Source: Bacteroidota bacterium (lineage in GTDB: Bacteria > Bacteroidota > Bacteroidia > M30B66). Taken from it: a DNA stretch of 60,263 nucleotides. The stretch covers positions 1 to 60,263 of the forward strand of contig JAIXUS010000037.1 in the NCBI GenBank assembly GCA_027483445.1. The letters run 5' to 3'. The position numbers were made by a program, and so were the translations under genes. Below the pieces are notes generated by a model. That model did no database searches. It worked only from the letters and a program-made list of their open reading frames with translations, and was not told where the DNA came from. Positions 5,614-50,741 of the stretch are shown here, in pieces. Position 1 is the stretch's first letter; every line of letters starts with the position of its first letter.

Positions 5614-8600
5614 TTAAGGAATAACAATCACGCGCTCAGTTCGCACCGCCTCTGCCGCGAAAAGCTGCACAAAGTACATTCCTGCGCTAAGATTCCAGTT
5701 GAGTTCAGCAGCTCCTTGAAGCATACCGGTTTCTACCAGTTTACCCTCGGCAGTCATCAGGCGATAGCCTTGCCAAAAATTGCCGGCCGCCAGGCGAACA
5801 TGGCCTTTCGATGGATTCGGGAAGAGGCTGAAGCCCTTATTTAAACCTTCGATGATGTTCGACGGATTGAAGTTGTAAGCCAATGATGTAGACGTACAGC
5901 CTTGCGCATTGGTGAAAGTAACTGTGTAATTGCCTTCGGCCGATGGAACAAATTCGGCACTATTGGCACCGACCACAGCCTCACCATTGAGAAACCACTG
6001 AATATTGCCCGCGAATGGAGCTACCTCAAGCGCTCCGTTGCTGTTTTGGGTAATTACCGGACTTGCCGGAACCGGGTTAATCTGCACCGAAACCTGAGCC
6101 GAGGACTCACAACCCGCCTCATTCACACCGGTAACGGTATAAACGGTGCTTGTTGGAGGCGCAACAATAATCGATTCGCCAAAAATGTCGGAAACAGCCA
6201 ATACCGGCGACCACTCATACTCGAGGGCCCCACTTGCGGAAAGTGTCGCCGATTGTCCGGCGCAAATAGCACTGGGACTAGCACTTACCGTTAAATTAGG
6301 AGAGGCAATAACGGTAACAAACCCATTGCGGATTTCGGTGTCGGTTCCAAAAGCATTACCGGCCAAAAGACTTACCGAATAGGTTCCAGGCGTGCTGTAC
6401 ACTATCGTTGGGTTTAGCTGGGTAGAAGTTGCTGGCGTTCCTCCTTCGAATGTCCAGGTGTAGCTATCAGGCAGGTTGCTGCTCAGGTTGGTAAACAGCA
6501 CAGGCGTACCGGCACACACGGGAGTGGTTTGACTCAAGGCAAAGTCGGCTGCCGGAGGCGCTCCATTTACAACACCGGTAATGTTGATGTTATCGATATA
6601 CAGATTGTTGCCGTAATTGTTAAACGACTCAAACTTCACCCGTACGCCCGAAGCTCCGGCAAAGGGTGTGAGGTCGAGTGTAACGCAATCGGAGCCCACC
6701 GTGCCCATGCACCAATCGTTAGAGCTGGCCGGCAAAAAGTCGGTGGTCGAAATGGTCTGTGTGGCAAAGCTCCCCTGACCGCTTTCGCCACCACTGAAAA
6801 CGCGGGAGTAGGTGCTGCCGCAGTCGGTAGATACACTCACAATTAACGAATCGGTTTGGCCGGCTTCGTAACGTCGGTAAGCGTGCTCGAAACTCATCGT
6901 GATAGCTGAGTATCCGCTAAAATTCAAGGTTCTGGAAATAAGGCCATCCCGCTCGCCGGTAGCTGTGTAACTAAAAAAGGGAACGCGGGCCGAGGTATTT
7001 CCCGGTGCAGTACCTTGGGTGTTGATGACCTCCCAGCTCAGGCTATTGTCTGGGTTCTGAACGGTCCATCCGTTGGTTGTAAAGCCCCCCGACTCAAAGT
7101 TTTCCGTAAAGGGCAATGGGGTTCCGATTGGCGATACCACTGTAAAATTCACCGTCCGGCAATTGTTGGCGCCGAATAAATCGGGCTGATTGCCATTCAT
7201 CGTAGAGGTGCAGATGGTTAATGTATGTGCTCCAATGCCTGTGGTGATGGCCGGAAGTGTAATGTTGAGTGAGTTTTGAGGCTGGAGATTGCCGGTCCAC
7301 GTAAAAGCCGGAAGGCTCACGCCATCGAGCGTTGGGAGAAATACCAGCGAGGTGATGGCATTTTGCCCCGTATTTCTAAACGTTACCGCCGGTGTAAGGC
7401 CGGTATTGCAGGTAGATCCGCTGGGCGCGGTGATGGCCTGAAGGGAAGCATCGAAGGTTAACACGCTGGCACTGGCGCATTCGAGAGCCGCCTGGGCATT
7501 GATGCGCCCGGCCCCAAGCTGACCAATATAATTGCTGTTCTGGCCATTGATGTTGGTTGCCGTAATCTGAAGGCATTCCAACACTTCGGCAGGACTCAGA
7601 TTGGGGTTTACCGACAGCATTAAGCCGCAAAGGCCTGCAACAAGCGGCGATGCCATTGAAGTACCACTCTGAACGCCGTACGTGTTGCTGGGCAGCGTGC
7701 TGCGGATGGCACTTCCGGGCGAGGCAATGTCGATCCACGTTCCAAAGTTGCTGAACGACGACTTGGCATCGCTGCTGGCGGTGGAGGCTACTGAAATTAC
7801 GTGATTAAAACCGGCCGGATAAAACACCGTGCTTACATCGTCGTTTCCGGCGGCTGCCACCAAAACCACACCGGCCGTGTTGCCGGCATTCATAATGTTT
7901 TGCCCGGTTTGGCTGCCGCCCGAGCCACCCCACGACATGTTAATCACGTCGGCCCCGTTGTTAATCGCCCAGGTTACCCCTTCGTAGCCATCAGTGATAA
8001 ACTCTACTTCGTTGGTGGCCTTTACAGGAATGATGCTGATTCCAAAACCAATAGAAGCAATGCCGGTTCCATTGTTGGTTTCTGCACCAACGATTCCGGC
8101 CACGTGTGTACCGTGACTAAAGGTATTGTCGGGCGGATTGGGATTATTGTCGTTGTCGCTCACATCGCGCCCGGGAACACAAACATCGTTCAGGTCGGGA
8201 TGCGTTGTTTGTACCGCGTCATCCACAACAGCTACACGAATGGTGCTGCTTCCGGTGGCAATGTCCCACGCGGCCTGAGCATTGATGCGGTGCAGATACC
8301 ATTGACCGGTATTGCTGGTGTTGTTGGCCCCCAAATCGTTGGGCGTTAAACTGGTTTTGTGCAATGGAACCCGCTCGGCATAATCAACCACCGACCATTT
8401 TTCAAGGGTACGTATGAGCTCTTCGGTTTGCTGCGCGTTTTGAAAATAAACCCTGAGGGTTTGCCGCAGCTCGGTTTGACGGGCAAAATAAAAGGAGGCT
8501 CTAACGCGGGTAATGCCATACACCTCGGCCAAACGCTTTAGCTCGGGCAAGGCCTCAAGCTCAACAACGTCGGTATTTTTAGCAATAGGAAGCTGAATGT

Positions 8601-8733
8601 GATTTTTGAATTTCACATATAGCTGACCGTCGAAAAAGTGTGGATGATGTTGCTGCCCTGTAGAAGCTTTGGCAGTAAAAAGAAGTAAAAGTGTCGTGTA
8701 AAGTAAGGTGTGTATCCGTCCCATCCGATCCAA
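5614..8733 (-). CDS. Secreted subtilisin-like S8 serine peptidase with PKD domain and T9SS sorting domain
   Basis: 1039 residues, beginning with a signal peptide (hydrophobic LLYTTLLLLF). The peptidase S8 catalytic triad is complete: Asp171 in VAVVDD, His207 in HGTHVAG and Ser359 in GTSMASP, with the oxyanion Asn297 in AAAGND. Residues 30-120 look like an inhibitor-type propeptide. After the catalytic domain come beta-rich modules: a CARDB-like segment, a jelly-roll-like segment and a PKD domain (YTWTFEGG, then GTYSVSLLA). The end has a type A sorting domain (LFPNPSKG, later SAGMYFVQL) that directs export and surface attachment or release by the type IX secretion system, whose genes are not in this window. 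It is likely an extracellular degradative protease. Confidence 0.93.
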   Translation of the reverse strand: MDRMGRIHTLLYTTLLLLFTAKASTGQQHHPHFFDGQLYVKFKNHIQLPIAKNTDVVELEALPELKRLAEVYGITRVRASFYFARQTELRQTLRVYFQNAQQTEELIRTLEKWSVVDYAERVPLHKTSLTPNDLGANNTSNTGQWYLHRINAQAAWDIATGSSTIRVAVVDDAVQTTHPDLNDVCVPGRDVSDNDNNPNPPDNTFSHGTHVAGIVGAETNNGTGIASIGFGISIIPVKATNEVEFITDGYEGVTWAINNGADVINMSWGGSGGSQTGQNIMNAGNTAGVVLVAAAGNDDVSTVFYPAGFNHVISVASTASSDAKSSFSNFGTWIDIASPGSAIRSTLPSNTYGVQSGTSMASPLVAGLCGLMLSVNPNLSPAEVLECLQITATNINGQNSNYIGQLGAGRINAQAALECASASVLTFDASLQAITAPSGSTCNTGLTPAVTFRNTGQNAITSLVFLPTLDGVSLPAFTWTGNLQPQNSLNITLPAITTGIGAHTLTICTSTMNGNQPDLFGANNCRTVNFTVVSPIGTPLPFTENFESGGFTTNGWTVQNPDNSLSWEVINTQGTAPGNTSARVPFFSYTATGERDGLISRTLNFSGYSAITMSFEHAYRRYEAGQTDSLIVSVSTDCGSTYSRVFSGGESGQGSFATQTISTTDFLPASSNDWCMGTVGSDCVTLDLTPFAGASGVRVKFESFNNYGNNLYIDNINITGVVNGAPPAADFALSQTTPVCAGTPVLFTNLSSNLPDSYTWTFEGGTPATSTQLNPTIVYSTPGTYSVSLLAGNAFGTDTEIRNGFVTVIASPNLTVSASPSAICAGQSATLSASGALEYEWSPVLAVSDIFGESIIVAPPTSTVYTVTGVNEAGCESSAQVSVQINPVPASPVITQNSNGALEVAPFAGNIQWFLNGEAVVGANSAEFVPSAEGNYTVTFTNAQGCTSTSLAYNFNPSNIIEGLNKGFSLFPNPSKGHVRLAAGNFWQGYRLMTAEGKLVETGMLQGAAELNWNLSAGMYFVQLFAAEAVRTERVIVIP

Positions 8734-21193: not shown

Positions 21194-24100
21194 ATGCGGA
21201 ATTTAATCCTACTATTTTTCCTTTTCCTGCTGCAGCTTTCGGCCACAGCGCAGACATACCAGGGCATTACCGAGCGCGAACAACAGCAGCTCAGCGTGAT
21301 TTATGAAAGCAAGAACAACCCAGAATACTGGAAAAACCGCCTTCCTTTTCCCGGATACTGGCAACAAGATGTGCATTACGAAATCAAAGCCAACATCGAC
21401 GAGGTAAGCGACATTGTTACGGCAACTCAGAAACTCATTTACACCAACAATTCGCCCGACACGCTGAGCTTCGTGTTTTTTCACCTGTACCAAAATGCCT
21501 TTCAGCCCGAATCATACTGCGATATGCTCCACAGGGCCAACGATTATCCGGTTCGGTATGGTCCGTACGAGTCGCAAAAACTAGGTACTGTAGTTTCTAA
21601 CCTAAAGGTGGATGACCTCGAGGTAAAAACCGAGTTGGAAAACACCATTTTAAAAGTGTTTTTACCCAAGCCCCTGCTGCCGGGCAAGCAGGTAAGTATC
21701 ACCTTGGATTTTAAAACATACTTCGATTACCGGGGCAATGTTCGGCGACGCATGAAAGAGTTTGGGGCTTACGGCTACAAGCATTTTGATGGCGTTCACT
21801 GGTACCCGCGTATGGCTGTTTACGACCGGAAATTCGGTTGGAATACCGACCAGCACTTGGGCAAAGAATTTTACGGAAACTTCGGCACGTATGAGGTCGA
21901 ACTCACCTTCGCCGATAACTACGTAGTTGAAGCCACCGGTGCCCTCGCCAATCGCGATGAGGTTCTGCCCGACACCTTGAGGGCGAAACTCGACATCCGC
22001 AATTTTGCCAACAAGCCCTGGGAAGAAAAGCCTTCAGTCATCACACCTTACAACCCTAAAAAAAGAAAAACCTGGAGGTTTAGGGCCATTAACGTGCACG
22101 ACTTTGCCTGGACAGCCGACCCCACCTACCGCTTTGGAGAAGCTTTTTGGAATGGTATCCGCATCGTTTCTGTGGCACAGGAGCCGCACGCGGCAAGATG
22201 GCAAAACGCCGCCGACTACACCGCCAAGATTATCGAAACCTACTCGCGCGACTTCGGCATGTATGTGTACAACAAAATGGTGGTGGCCGACGCCCGCGAT
22301 GGCATGGAATACCCCATGCTCACCCTTGATGGAGGCGCAGACCCGGGCTATCGCGGTTTGTTGGCCCACGAAGTCGGGCACAATTGGTTTTTCGGCATGG
22401 TAGGCAGCAACGAAACCTACCGCGCCTTTATGGACGAAGGCTTTACGCAGTTACTCACTGCCTGGGCACTCGAAAAAATTGATGGCCCTTTTGTGGTCAA
22501 AGGGAAATACGCAAACGCCTACACCGAAAAACACAGCATAAAAGAGGAGCCGCGCTACGCTCGGGCATACTACGGCTACTTACGCGACGCGGTAAAGGGC
22601 GACGAAACGACGCTCAATACCCACTCTGATGATTTTGGTGGCACGCTTCGACATGGCGGCGGCTATGGCCAGGTGTACTACAAAACAGCCACGATGCTTT
22701 ACAATTTGCAATATGTTTTGGGCGATTCACTCTTTAGCGAGGCCATGAAGCACTATTTCAACCAGTGGAAGATGGCCCATCCGTATCCTGAAGATTTCCG
22801 AAACTCAATAATTCAATACACCAAGGCCGACTTAAACTGGTTTTTCGACCAATGGCTCGAAACTTCCAAAACCATCGATTACGGTATTGGTAAGGTGAAG
22901 CACCTTGGCGAAGGAAAGTATCGGATACGCCTCCACCGGGAAGGAGAAATGCAAATGCCCATTGACTTGGCTGTGTACGATGTGAGTGGCAAGCGATATG
23001 ACTTTCATATTCCAAACGGGTGGTTTGAAAAATCAACGCCGGCCACTGTACTTCCCCGATGGATTGGCTGGGGCAAGTTAAACCCGAGCTACACGGCTGA
23101 AATTACGCTACAAGATAAACTGCAAGACGTAGTGATTGATACCACAGCCCGTTTGGCCGACGTGAACATGCTCAACAACCGTTTGAAGGTTCCTCGCACC
23201 ATTAAGCTCGATTCCAGAGTGAGCAACCCCTCCGACTGGAAAAACTATGAGCTCTTTGTTCGGCCCGACCTCTGGTATAACTATTACGATGGAGGAAAGC
23301 TTGGGATTCATCTCAATGGCAATTACATGAAGTCGAAGCACATCTTCCATTTCACGTTTTGGCTCAATACCGGAATTGGCAAGGTGGAACGCAATTTTGA
23401 ATACAAATTCAACGGGTACAATCCTTTCTCGGTAAATGCCGGCTACACAACCTCAACCCATCGCTTTGTGCGGAAAAGCCGATTGGTTTCGCAGGCGCGT
23501 TACCTCGACGGCTTGTTGCTTGGGCGTTTGGGGTGGGAAATGGACAGCCGAAGCGAGCGTTCAACCTTTTACACCTTTGTGAAGTGGATGGAACGCAGCG
23601 ATAGTACCGACCTCAACTATCTCATGGATCGTAGCGGCTGGAATCCGGGGCGCTCAAACGTGACCTGGAATGCAGGCGTTCGTCACCAATACGAATACCG
23701 CCGTGGTGAGGGTCGGCTGCATTTAGGTTTGAAAACAACCGCACCGGGCTCCGACTACGATTACAGCCAGATTTTCCTGGAAGCCATCAACGAAAACTAC
23801 CTGCACAAACTGGTATTCCGCACCCGACTGTTTGCCCAATACGGAAGTGGAAAAGACGTGGCTCCTGAATCGGCGCTTTACCTTGCCGGAGCTAATCCTG
23901 AAGAAATGATGGAGAACAAGTTCGTGCGTTCGGCGGCATTTTTCCCACAAGATTTCAATGGTTTCGGTCAGGATGTGAATCGTTTTCATTTTGGAGGTGG
24001 ACTCAATGTTCGCGGTTATGCCGGGTATTTGGCCCCTGAAACGTTGAATGATGGAACGGTGGTGCTCGGTTATCGCGGGAATACCGGCGTTTCGTTTAAT

Positions 24101-24415
24101 GCCGAGTTGGAGTTCGATGAATATCTGGGCTTTAAATCAAGGCTTTTGCGCCGCTGGTTCGACTTAGACCTCTATTTGTTTGGCGATGCAGGCGTGCTTA
24201 ACAGCAGTTTACCGGGTGAAGCTTTAAGAATGGCCGAAATCAGAGCCAGTGCGGGAACCGGCGCAGCGCTAACAATCAAAAGCTGGGGCCGCTTTGCGGA
24301 GGAAAAACCACTCACCTTACGTTTCGATGTTCCCCTGTTTTTGAACCGAACACCTTTTGTTTCGCCCGATTACCTGCAATTCCGATGGTTAATTGGAGTA
24401 GAACGGGCATTTTAA
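21194..24415 (+). CDS. Exported M1-family metallopeptidase with C-terminal Omp85-like beta-barrel
   Basis: 1073 residues from the ATG at 21194, which starts a clear signal peptide (LILLFFLFLLQLSATAQ). The catalytic part is a gluzincin: HEVGH at 392-396 and a third zinc ligand Glu415 exactly 18 residues later, preceded by GMEYPM in the place of the GAMEN substrate loop of M1 aminopeptidases. The peptidase and its helical part end near residue 600. The last ~400 residues are beta-rich with alternating aromatic and polar strands, contain GGGLNVRGYAGY (the VRGF/Y signature of the Omp85/TpsB barrel loop) near residue 936, and end in a terminal Phe, the usual outer-membrane barrel signal. I infer an outer-membrane-anchored aminopeptidase. 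The preceding gene ends 33 nt upstream. Confidence 0.85.
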   Translation: MRNLILLFFLFLLQLSATAQTYQGITEREQQQLSVIYESKNNPEYWKNRLPFPGYWQQDVHYEIKANIDEVSDIVTATQKLIYTNNSPDTLSFVFFHLYQNAFQPESYCDMLHRANDYPVRYGPYESQKLGTVVSNLKVDDLEVKTELENTILKVFLPKPLLPGKQVSITLDFKTYFDYRGNVRRRMKEFGAYGYKHFDGVHWYPRMAVYDRKFGWNTDQHLGKEFYGNFGTYEVELTFADNYVVEATGALANRDEVLPDTLRAKLDIRNFANKPWEEKPSVITPYNPKKRKTWRFRAINVHDFAWTADPTYRFGEAFWNGIRIVSVAQEPHAARWQNAADYTAKIIETYSRDFGMYVYNKMVVADARDGMEYPMLTLDGGADPGYRGLLAHEVGHNWFFGMVGSNETYRAFMDEGFTQLLTAWALEKIDGPFVVKGKYANAYTEKHSIKEEPRYARAYYGYLRDAVKGDETTLNTHSDDFGGTLRHGGGYGQVYYKTATMLYNLQYVLGDSLFSEAMKHYFNQWKMAHPYPEDFRNSIIQYTKADLNWFFDQWLETSKTIDYGIGKVKHLGEGKYRIRLHREGEMQMPIDLAVYDVSGKRYDFHIPNGWFEKSTPATVLPRWIGWGKLNPSYTAEITLQDKLQDVVIDTTARLADVNMLNNRLKVPRTIKLDSRVSNPSDWKNYELFVRPDLWYNYYDGGKLGIHLNGNYMKSKHIFHFTFWLNTGIGKVERNFEYKFNGYNPFSVNAGYTTSTHRFVRKSRLVSQARYLDGLLLGRLGWEMDSRSERSTFYTFVKWMERSDSTDLNYLMDRSGWNPGRSNVTWNAGVRHQYEYRRGEGRLHLGLKTTAPGSDYDYSQIFLEAINENYLHKLVFRTRLFAQYGSGKDVAPESALYLAGANPEEMMENKFVRSAAFFPQDFNGFGQDVNRFHFGGGLNVRGYAGYLAPETLNDGTVVLGYRGNTGVSFNAELEFDEYLGFKSRLLRRWFDLDLYLFGDAGVLNSSLPGEALRMAEIRASAGTGAALTIKSWGRFAEEKPLTLRFDVPLFLNRTPFVSPDYLQFRWLIGVERAF

Positions 24416-49103: not shown

Positions 49104-50741
49104 ATGAAGAATTATTTGATGTATGCGCTGCTGTTGTGCACTGCTTTATCTACGGCTACAAAAGCCGAGGTGTTCGACAACGGTACCAGCAAGGTGCAAC
49201 TCATCAGGGTGAAAAACCTGATTATGGGTGGCGATTATTACACTGCAATGAAGGTAATCCGCGATTTAGAGAAGTCGGACAGCACAACTGCCGAGCTCTA
49301 TTTTATGTCGGGAGAATGCCATTTCCAGTTGAAAAACTACGAGGAAGCCATTGATCGTCTGAACCGGTCAATTCGCCTCAATCCAAACGAAGACCCTGAA
49401 AAGTACTTTCTGCTCGGCCAAACCCTGCAAGCCACTGGAAGTTTAGAGGAATCTATCAAGAATTATCAAATCTTCCTGGAGAAGAACCCCAAGAAAGAGG
49501 ATAGTTCCGAAGAAGCCGCCGCATTTATACTTCAGTGTAAAAATGCCATCCAAATGATGAAAAACCCGGTAAACGTTAGTATTTTCAATGTAAGCGATAA
49601 AATCAATTCTGAATATCCCGAATACAATCCATCCGTTTCTGCCGATGGGAAAAAACTCATTTTCACCAGTCGTCGCCCCGAAAGCACAGGCAAATTACAA
49701 GATCCCGACGATGGCAAATTTTACGAAGATATTTACATCGCTTTGAAGGATTCTTTGTCGGGAAAATGGGGCGATCCTGAACCCGTTCCGGGAAGGCTAA
49801 ACACGGAGACTCACGATGCGAATATGAACATTTCGCCCGATGGCAATCAGATTTATGTGTATCGAAATCTAGGATACCGGGGAAGTGGAGAAATCTTAGT
49901 TTCTAAGCTAAGCCGTACCGGAAAATGGGGCGAAGCCAAACCGCTCGAAGGCGATGTAAACACCTCTTATTTCGAAAGCTCGGCTTGCGTAAGTCCCGAC
50001 GGGAAAACCCTTTATTTCGTTTCTGAACGCCCCAAAGGAGGGTTTGGTATGGGCGACATATATATGTGTAAGCGAGAAGGCAAGAATAGCTGGGGAAAAG
50101 CGGTTAACCTCGGGCCCGTAATTAACGACGAATACGACCAGATTGGCGTGTTTGTGCACCCCGATGGAAAAACGTTGTATTACGCATCTAACAGTCCCAA
50201 AGCCCTTGGTGGATACGACATTTTCAAAACAACACTCGATAATGGCAAATGGTCAGAACCCGAAAATTTGGGCTACCCTATCAATACCTTGGGTGATGAG
50301 CGATTTTTCAGTATGAGTACAGATGGCCGTACAGCTTGGTTTAGCTCCAACCGTGAAGGAGGAAGCGGCGATTTGGATATTTGGGAAATTGACTTTAGTG
50401 CCTTGAAAAAGCAAGCCGACGAAAACGCGGCTCAGAGCGCAGTAGTTGTACCGAAAGGCCCTCCCATTTCTATTTTTTCAGGCAAAGTGATCGATTCTAA
50501 CGCAGGAGAAATAATTGAGACAGAAATGCTTGTTATTGATCGAGATAGCGGTAAACAAACACCGATTTCTTCTGATGAAAACGGACAGTATTTCATCACC
50601 CTTGAAGGAAACAGGAATTATCAGGTGAAAGTGAGCAATCCGGCGTATAAAACTTATGAATTTGATTTTTTCCTGAAGGCTCAGGATAGCGGCACGTTTA
50701 CCCTCGAAAAACTCATCGTTCTCGATAAATTACCGAAGTAA
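49104..50741 (+). CDS. Exported TPR-PD40 repeat protein
   Basis: 545 residues with a signal peptide (YALLLCTALSTATKA). Residues 30-150 form TPR-like helices (AELYFMSGECHFQLKNYEEAIDRLNRSIRLNPNEDP). Residues 165-430 contain several PD40/WD40-like beta-propeller units (PSVSADGKKLIFTSRRPE; CVSPDGKTLYFVSERPKGG; VHPDGKTLYYASNSP). The end is a carboxypeptidase-regulatory-like beta sandwich. The architecture resembles the N-terminal part of the T9SS-associated PorE protein but lacks an OmpA-like peptidoglycan-binding end. TACTTTTA at 49070-49077 may be its promoter element. Confidence 0.75.
   Translation: MKNYLMYALLLCTALSTATKAEVFDNGTSKVQLIRVKNLIMGGDYYTAMKVIRDLEKSDSTTAELYFMSGECHFQLKNYEEAIDRLNRSIRLNPNEDPEKYFLLGQTLQATGSLEESIKNYQIFLEKNPKKEDSSEEAAAFILQCKNAIQMMKNPVNVSIFNVSDKINSEYPEYNPSVSADGKKLIFTSRRPESTGKLQDPDDGKFYEDIYIALKDSLSGKWGDPEPVPGRLNTETHDANMNISPDGNQIYVYRNLGYRGSGEILVSKLSRTGKWGEAKPLEGDVNTSYFESSACVSPDGKTLYFVSERPKGGFGMGDIYMCKREGKNSWGKAVNLGPVINDEYDQIGVFVHPDGKTLYYASNSPKALGGYDIFKTTLDNGKWSEPENLGYPINTLGDERFFSMSTDGRTAWFSSNREGGSGDLDIWEIDFSALKKQADENAAQSAVVVPKGPPISIFSGKVIDSNAGEIIETEMLVIDRDSGKQTPISSDENGQYFITLEGNRNYQVKVSNPAYKTYEFDFFLKAQDSGTFTLEKLIVLDKLPK

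Follow-up and report, generated by a model that had tools for sequence, protein, structure and literature searches.

An M1 metallopeptidase joined to a predicted Omp85-type outer-membrane barrel in Bacteroidota

The gene described here comes from a Bacteroidota bacterium (assembly GCA_027483445.1, contig JAIXUS010000037.1) and lies in a window of 60,263 nucleotides, the window being the whole stretch of DNA that was analysed. It encodes an N-terminal M1 metallopeptidase followed by a C-terminal region that is predicted to fold as an Omp85-type beta-barrel (Table 1), a kind of barrel that serves in outer-membrane assembly or in export across this membrane. A first-pass annotation, made from the DNA letters, had the open reading frame and its main features right, namely the gene boundaries, the hydrophobic N-terminus, HEVGH at 392-396, Glu415 and the terminal Phe1073; the VRGY motif that it placed near residue 936 is also present, but occupies residues 939-942. 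These are not chance features of an open reading frame, because H392, E393, H396, E415, Y495, R940, F996 and D998 are identical in 73 of 73 relatives. The first 20 residues form a probable signal peptide, and inspection of this hydrophobic N-terminus shows that the lipobox cysteine is absent, by which the fusion is judged from its sequence to be a non-lipoprotein. A lipoprotein identity was ruled out on this ground, and a T9SS cargo identity was ruled out as well, the C-terminus being that of the barrel.

Table 1. Features of the fusion gene and its predicted product, in window coordinates.
Feature	Residues	Position	Strand	Basis
Whole gene, M1 peptidase-Omp85 barrel fusion	1-1073 (1073 aa)	21194..24415	+	ATG at 21194, stop ends at 24415 (stop codon included)
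Putative Sec signal peptide, MRNLILLFFLFLLQLSATAQ	1-20	21194..21253	+	sequence; similar N-terminus in aligned relatives
M1 peptidase, domains I-III	~53-660	21350..23173	+	Pfam PF01433; VIA-align to tricorn factor F3 and ERAP1
GMEYP, counterpart of M1 GxMEN motif	370-374	22301..22315	+	invariant in 73/73, partly circular: loci fetched with DGMEYPM
HEVGH zinc site	392-396	22367..22381	+	H392, E393, H396 invariant in 73/73
Third zinc ligand, Glu415	415	22436..22438	+	invariant in 73/73
Tyr495, candidate catalytic Tyr of M1	495	22676..22678	+	invariant in 73/73; role by motif position
Predicted Omp85-type 16-strand beta-barrel	685-1073	23246..24412	+	DSSP of model; Foldseek and VIA-align to BamA, Sam50, TamA, FhaC
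Long loop between strands 11 and 12, L6 position	889-964	23858..24085	+	predicted model; conservation 67%
VRGY, inside GGGLNVRGYAGY	939-942	24008..24019	+	R940 invariant in 73/73
FGDAG in strand 13, FxDxG position of Omp85	996-1000	24179..24193	+	F996, D998, G1000 invariant in 73/73
Last barrel strand, QFRWLIGVERAF, terminal Phe		24377..24412	+	R1064 in 73/73, F1073 in 72/73

Upstream of the fusion gene stand genes for a DUF4783 protein, quinolinate phosphoribosyltransferase (nadC) and a BrkB/YihY-family protein, an order that recurs at about a quarter of the loci of 80 relatives. A gene for a TPR-type protein follows directly downstream at 18 of these 80 loci, at a median distance of 91 bp (the one of the 18 that was scanned is L055:9252-10079), and it is absent in the window. 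The neighbours differ among the 80 loci and no fixed gene partner pointing to a pathway was found there, for which reason the reading of function from gene neighbours was dropped. Elsewhere in the window, positions 5614-8733 encode a subtilisin-like serine protease with a T9SS type A sorting domain (TIGR04183), and positions 49104-50741 encode an OmpA-like protein that resembles the PorE/CHU_0125 families with E 1e-53, below the cut-offs of those families.

Pfam returns one match over the whole protein, to Peptidase_M1 (PF01433, residues 389-554, E 1.2e-12), and VIA-align of the whole predicted model finds tricorn factor F3 (1z1w) with Z 28.6, the two-domain M1 enzyme of Deinococcus radiodurans (6a8z) with Z 26.5, and ERAP1 with Z 27.6, residues 59-671 of the latter being laid onto model residues 58-680. 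By these M1 structure matches, domains I-III are present in the predicted model and the C-terminal helical domain IV is absent. In the MEROPS definition of the family the zinc site is HExxH-(18)-E in a thermolysin-like domain, found here as HEVGH with E415, and the fold comprises domains I and II with domain III optional, which is what the predicted model contains. GMEYP takes the place of the exopeptidase motif GxMEN, and it and the invariant Y495 are assigned their roles by position; residues G370-M375 are invariant in 73 of 73 relatives, a figure that is circular in part, since the relatives were retrieved with the pattern DGMEYPM. The zinc site appears intact, so the M1 domain should be an active peptidase, and by family an aminopeptidase. 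The same genome encodes a separate M1 protein of 1031 residues (L111:1983-5075, G000:C30), also with HEVGH, which forms its own clade in the M1 tree (support 100/100). Its C-terminal region looks beta-rich, has no VRGY, contains a conserved SGxxGxQDYLYD stretch and at its start resembles strands 1-2 of the fusion barrel (P 0.0015), and this protein may be another M1-barrel fusion.

The C-terminal region was modelled with AlphaFold2 using 54 relatives, both within the whole protein (pLDDT 85.8, pTM 0.80) and as residues 646-1073 alone (pLDDT 84.5, pTM 0.81). The predicted barrel has 16 strands, of which the final one is short (4 residues by DSSP). In VIA-align, where model residues 29-428 correspond to residues 674-1073 of the window protein, it matches Sam50 (Z 20.5), BamA, TamA and FhaC with Z 18-20.5, and all of the best 50 PDB entries are Omp85 proteins; Foldseek gives E values of about 1e-9 to BamA and 6e-9 to TamA. 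The first-pass annotation had set a soluble beta-sandwich or helical domain against a 16-strand barrel, and AlphaFold2, Foldseek and VIA-align uphold the barrel, the predicted models excluding both a soluble beta-sandwich and the helical domain IV as the C-terminus. In Omp85 proteins, the arginine of the loop-6 VRGF/Y motif pairs with the aspartate of the strand-13 FxDxG motif. The predicted model has the 16-strand fold, with VRGF/Y placed in the loop that joins strands 11 and 12, and with FxDxG as part of strand 13, whose sequence includes YLFGDAG; the BamA of F. johnsoniae carries LRGY (PMC12611786). Among the 73 full-length relatives, loop 6 (67%) is more conserved than the barrel strands (58-61%), and the M1 domains stand at 72-75%. 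There is no POTRA domain, only ~25 residues separating M1 domain III from strand 1 in the predicted model. Most Omp85 proteins, though not all, have at least one POTRA domain, and subfamilies without any are recognised (PMC4104836). On the predicted structure, the motif positions and the conservation, which strongly support the original proposal that an M1 peptidase is joined to an Omp85-like barrel and thereby held at the outer membrane, this architecture is real.

The first-pass annotation had also pointed to other Bacteroidota as the place to look for the same domain pair, and it is found there: of the 40 nearest genomes searched, about 31 have a homologue that spans most of both domains, and the fusion is present in most of the nearest families. 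Across the class, a profile of the barrel matches 203 of 395 sampled genomes and 87 of 197 genera, the other half being without a match; genomes with the barrel nearly always have a single match, and most of the listed matches lie in an open frame of ~1050-1130 residues. Plasmid records gave no match. In the wider phylum the profile matches 56 of 296 genomes, many of them in one family (f51), where the barrel is a standalone protein of ~400 residues. These standalone barrels align to the fusion barrels with an hhalign E value of 1e-43, and several have an evident signal peptide with the first barrel strand almost directly after it. In f51 and close families (L186, L187, L188, L189, L190, L191 and L193) the standalone gene most often sits between a NUDIX-like gene and ackA, with a lipoprotein-like protein encoded two genes on (adjoining the barrel in L189), and one such protein, L186:2391-4121, matches the caspase domain PF00656.

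Other relatives have kept the barrel without a working peptidase. In two fusions of family f2 (L113:1619-4657 and L230), the M1 part is without GMEYP, HExxH and the Glu region, and the barrel motifs are intact: the peptidase-dead fusion of genome G560 keeps GGGLNLRGYSGYL and YLFYDAG, that of G010 keeps AGGLNLRGYSGWQ and YAFYDAG, and the latch motif GGLNLRGYSG is intact in both. Another genome (G012) has lost the M1 part and kept the barrel, in a 606-residue version (L112:4103-5920) with a short unrelated N-terminal region. In a tree of the M1 part, the fusions of the window type and the dead forms make up one clade (support 100/100), and M1 proteins of ~620 residues that have no barrel nest among proteins of other classes with a long C-terminal part. 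This nesting suggests that the ~620-residue proteins arose by barrel loss, on a midpoint-rooted tree in which not all of the C-terminal parts are shown to be barrels.

The tie to Omp85 proteins is less direct in sequence than in fold. Searches of Pfam, NCBIfam, PHROGs and PDB sequences gave no match of the barrel to Omp85 or to another barrel family, a Pfam scan gave no PF01103 match in the barrel region of 54 members, and a PF01103 search of the genome itself matched three other genes, the fusion gene not being among them. Compared with Bacteroidota BamA, the profile of the fusion barrels alone is not significant (P 0.26, with 30 of 60 block-permuted controls equally good), and we therefore do not claim direct sequence homology between the two. 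The profile of the standalone barrels reaches P 0.0009 and a merged profile of fusion and standalone barrels P 0.0017, none of 60 controls reaching the score in either case, and the merged alignment places LRGY over LRGY and FGDAG over FLEAG in register. The profile evidence for a sequence kinship with BamA, which would be weak and run through intermediates, is moderate, and the fold evidence is stronger. This weakness of the direct tie is what speaks for a non-Omp85 barrel of 16 strands that converged on LRGY by chance, an explanation to which we give hardly any credence, given that the closest structural matches are without exception Omp85 proteins, that R940 and D998 are both invariant at the positions expected in loop 11-12 and strand 13, and that the merged profile outscores every permuted control. 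Because the predicted barrel has 16 strands and the last one ends at the C-terminus, its N-terminus would be periplasmic, and because the odd loops sum to 154 residues and the even turns to 45, the odd loops would be outside, which again puts the N-terminus in the periplasm; a peptidase extending from there would be periplasmic unless exported through its own barrel. Such export (type Vd, as first proposed for PlpD), with the M1 domain processing surface proteins or feeding on peptides at the cell surface, answers to the second option of the first-pass annotation, the processing of surface proteins, and it suits a phylum that is rich in T9SS cargo and surface lipoproteins. We consider it quite improbable, as a folded M1 unit of ~600 residues could get out only by unfolding and threading through a pore of 16 strands. 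The prototype PlpD, long seen as an example of self-export, itself keeps its enzyme domain in the periplasm (PMC11116518), and this, together with the 16-strand topology, makes the processing of surface proteins a disfavoured role. The even number of strands, the length of the odd loops and the example of PlpD make a peptidase on the periplasmic side probable.

The reading that we prefer is of an outer-membrane enzyme with a PlpD-like build and a different enzyme. Sec would export the protein, and the C-terminal part would form a 16-strand Omp85-type barrel within the outer membrane, with the long loop 6 and its VRGY packing in the lumen against the FxDxG of strand 13, and with M1 domains I-III hanging on the periplasmic side in the place of POTRA domains. 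The presumably active zinc peptidase would act on peptides or unfolded polypeptides near the inner face of the outer membrane, perhaps in trimming or clearance at the barrel site (quality control or peptide recycling), and the barrel may keep its own function in assembly or as a conduit or gate, both the substrate and the barrel function being guesses. The architecture together with a periplasmic and active peptidase is likely as a whole, though outer-membrane location, periplasmic side and activity are all inferred; the specific role of trimming or clearance beside a barrel function of its own is more tentative and somewhat on the doubtful side. The barrel is probably more than an anchor, since its motifs persist in relatives whose peptidase is dead or missing and since standalone barrels exist, and these versions make it questionable to see the barrel as a mere holder, as the first-pass annotation had done. 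A degenerate Omp85 fold that only holds a periplasmic peptidase, with no part in transport or assembly, is the simplest reading of the fusion and fits the missing POTRA domain, the missing Pfam Omp85 match and barrel strands whose conservation falls short of that of the M1 domains, but it is rather unlikely in view of barrels that stand without any enzyme, latch motifs that are intact in peptidase-dead and peptidase-less versions, and a loop 6 whose conservation exceeds that of the neighbouring strands. In a coupled conduit, oligopeptides or unfolded polypeptides would cross the outer membrane through the barrel and be trimmed by the M1 domain at its periplasmic side. Such a conduit would explain a peptidase fused directly at the periplasmic mouth of the barrel, and the conserved pair of loop 6 and strand 13 is luminal in Omp85 proteins; we hold it to be unlikely, since nothing points to an open pore and no transporter partner lies nearby, and the peptidase-dead forms would need another peptidase. 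Peptide trimming for import, which the first-pass annotation had offered, is possible. A bolder version of the preferred reading, which we put forward as speculation and on balance rather doubt, is that this POTRA-less Omp85 barrel is still active in polypeptide translocation or insertion and that a zinc peptidase has been recruited where POTRA domains would stand. A single polypeptide would then couple passage or assembly at the outer membrane to proteolytic trimming; if true, the standalone and peptidase-dead relatives would be the same machine without the cutter. With an active, a dead and a missing peptidase on the same barrel, there is a natural comparison by which the function of a POTRA-less Omp85 protein becomes directly testable.

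To our knowledge very few enzyme-Omp85 fusions are known, and PlpD is the only well-tested one. PlpD, the patatin-like Omp85 protein of P. aeruginosa, resembles the M1 fusion in having an N-terminal enzyme and an Omp85 barrel in one polypeptide, and the periplasmic side of the enzyme is shown for PlpD and inferred for the M1 fusion; PlpD has a lipase and a POTRA domain and is a dimer, whereas the M1 fusion has a metallopeptidase and no POTRA, and Pfam finds only Peptidase_M1 in it and no patatin-like lipase domain. Another enzyme domain joined to Omp85 barrels is PF00149, the metallophosphoesterase of current Pfam naming. Heinz and Lithgow (2014, PMC4104836) distinguish ten Omp85 subfamilies, among them fusions to patatin, PF00149 and WD40 domains as well as one group that has no POTRA domain, and no M1 fusion is named in the parts of their survey covered here. 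The 'Metallo' subfamily of that text (PF00149) likewise combines a metalloenzyme with an Omp85 barrel, but its enzyme has a different fold from the M1 zinc peptidase, and the noNterm-Omp85 subfamily, as described there, has a POTRA-less barrel in a layout that the standalone ~400-residue relatives share, whereas in the fusion a 660-residue peptidase precedes the barrel, and these barrels are missed by Pfam PF01103. A search of open-access papers turned up no account of an M1-Omp85 protein, and the elastase FP0506 of F. psychrophilum was rejected as a described counterpart, being a lipid-anchored gluzincin of 296 residues. The fusion is common, occurring in about half of the genomes that were sampled in the class, is usually single-copy, and has a barrel that is invisible to Pfam, and enzyme-Omp85 fusions suggest that the Omp85 scaffold serves beyond assembly and secretion. 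With BamA, TamA/TamL, Sam50 and FhaC, the fusion shares the predicted 16-strand barrel, the VRGF/Y of loop 6 and its strand-13 partner, but those proteins have POTRA domains and the fusion has none, and the direct sequence similarity is very weak. With the M1 aminopeptidases ERAP1, IRAP, LTA4H and tricorn F3 and the two-domain 6a8z it shares domains I-III or I-II and the zinc site, and in place of domain IV it has the predicted membrane barrel. The parts of the M1-Omp85 protein are thus known and their combination is apparently undescribed, and the fusion may represent an eleventh architecture of the Omp85 superfamily.
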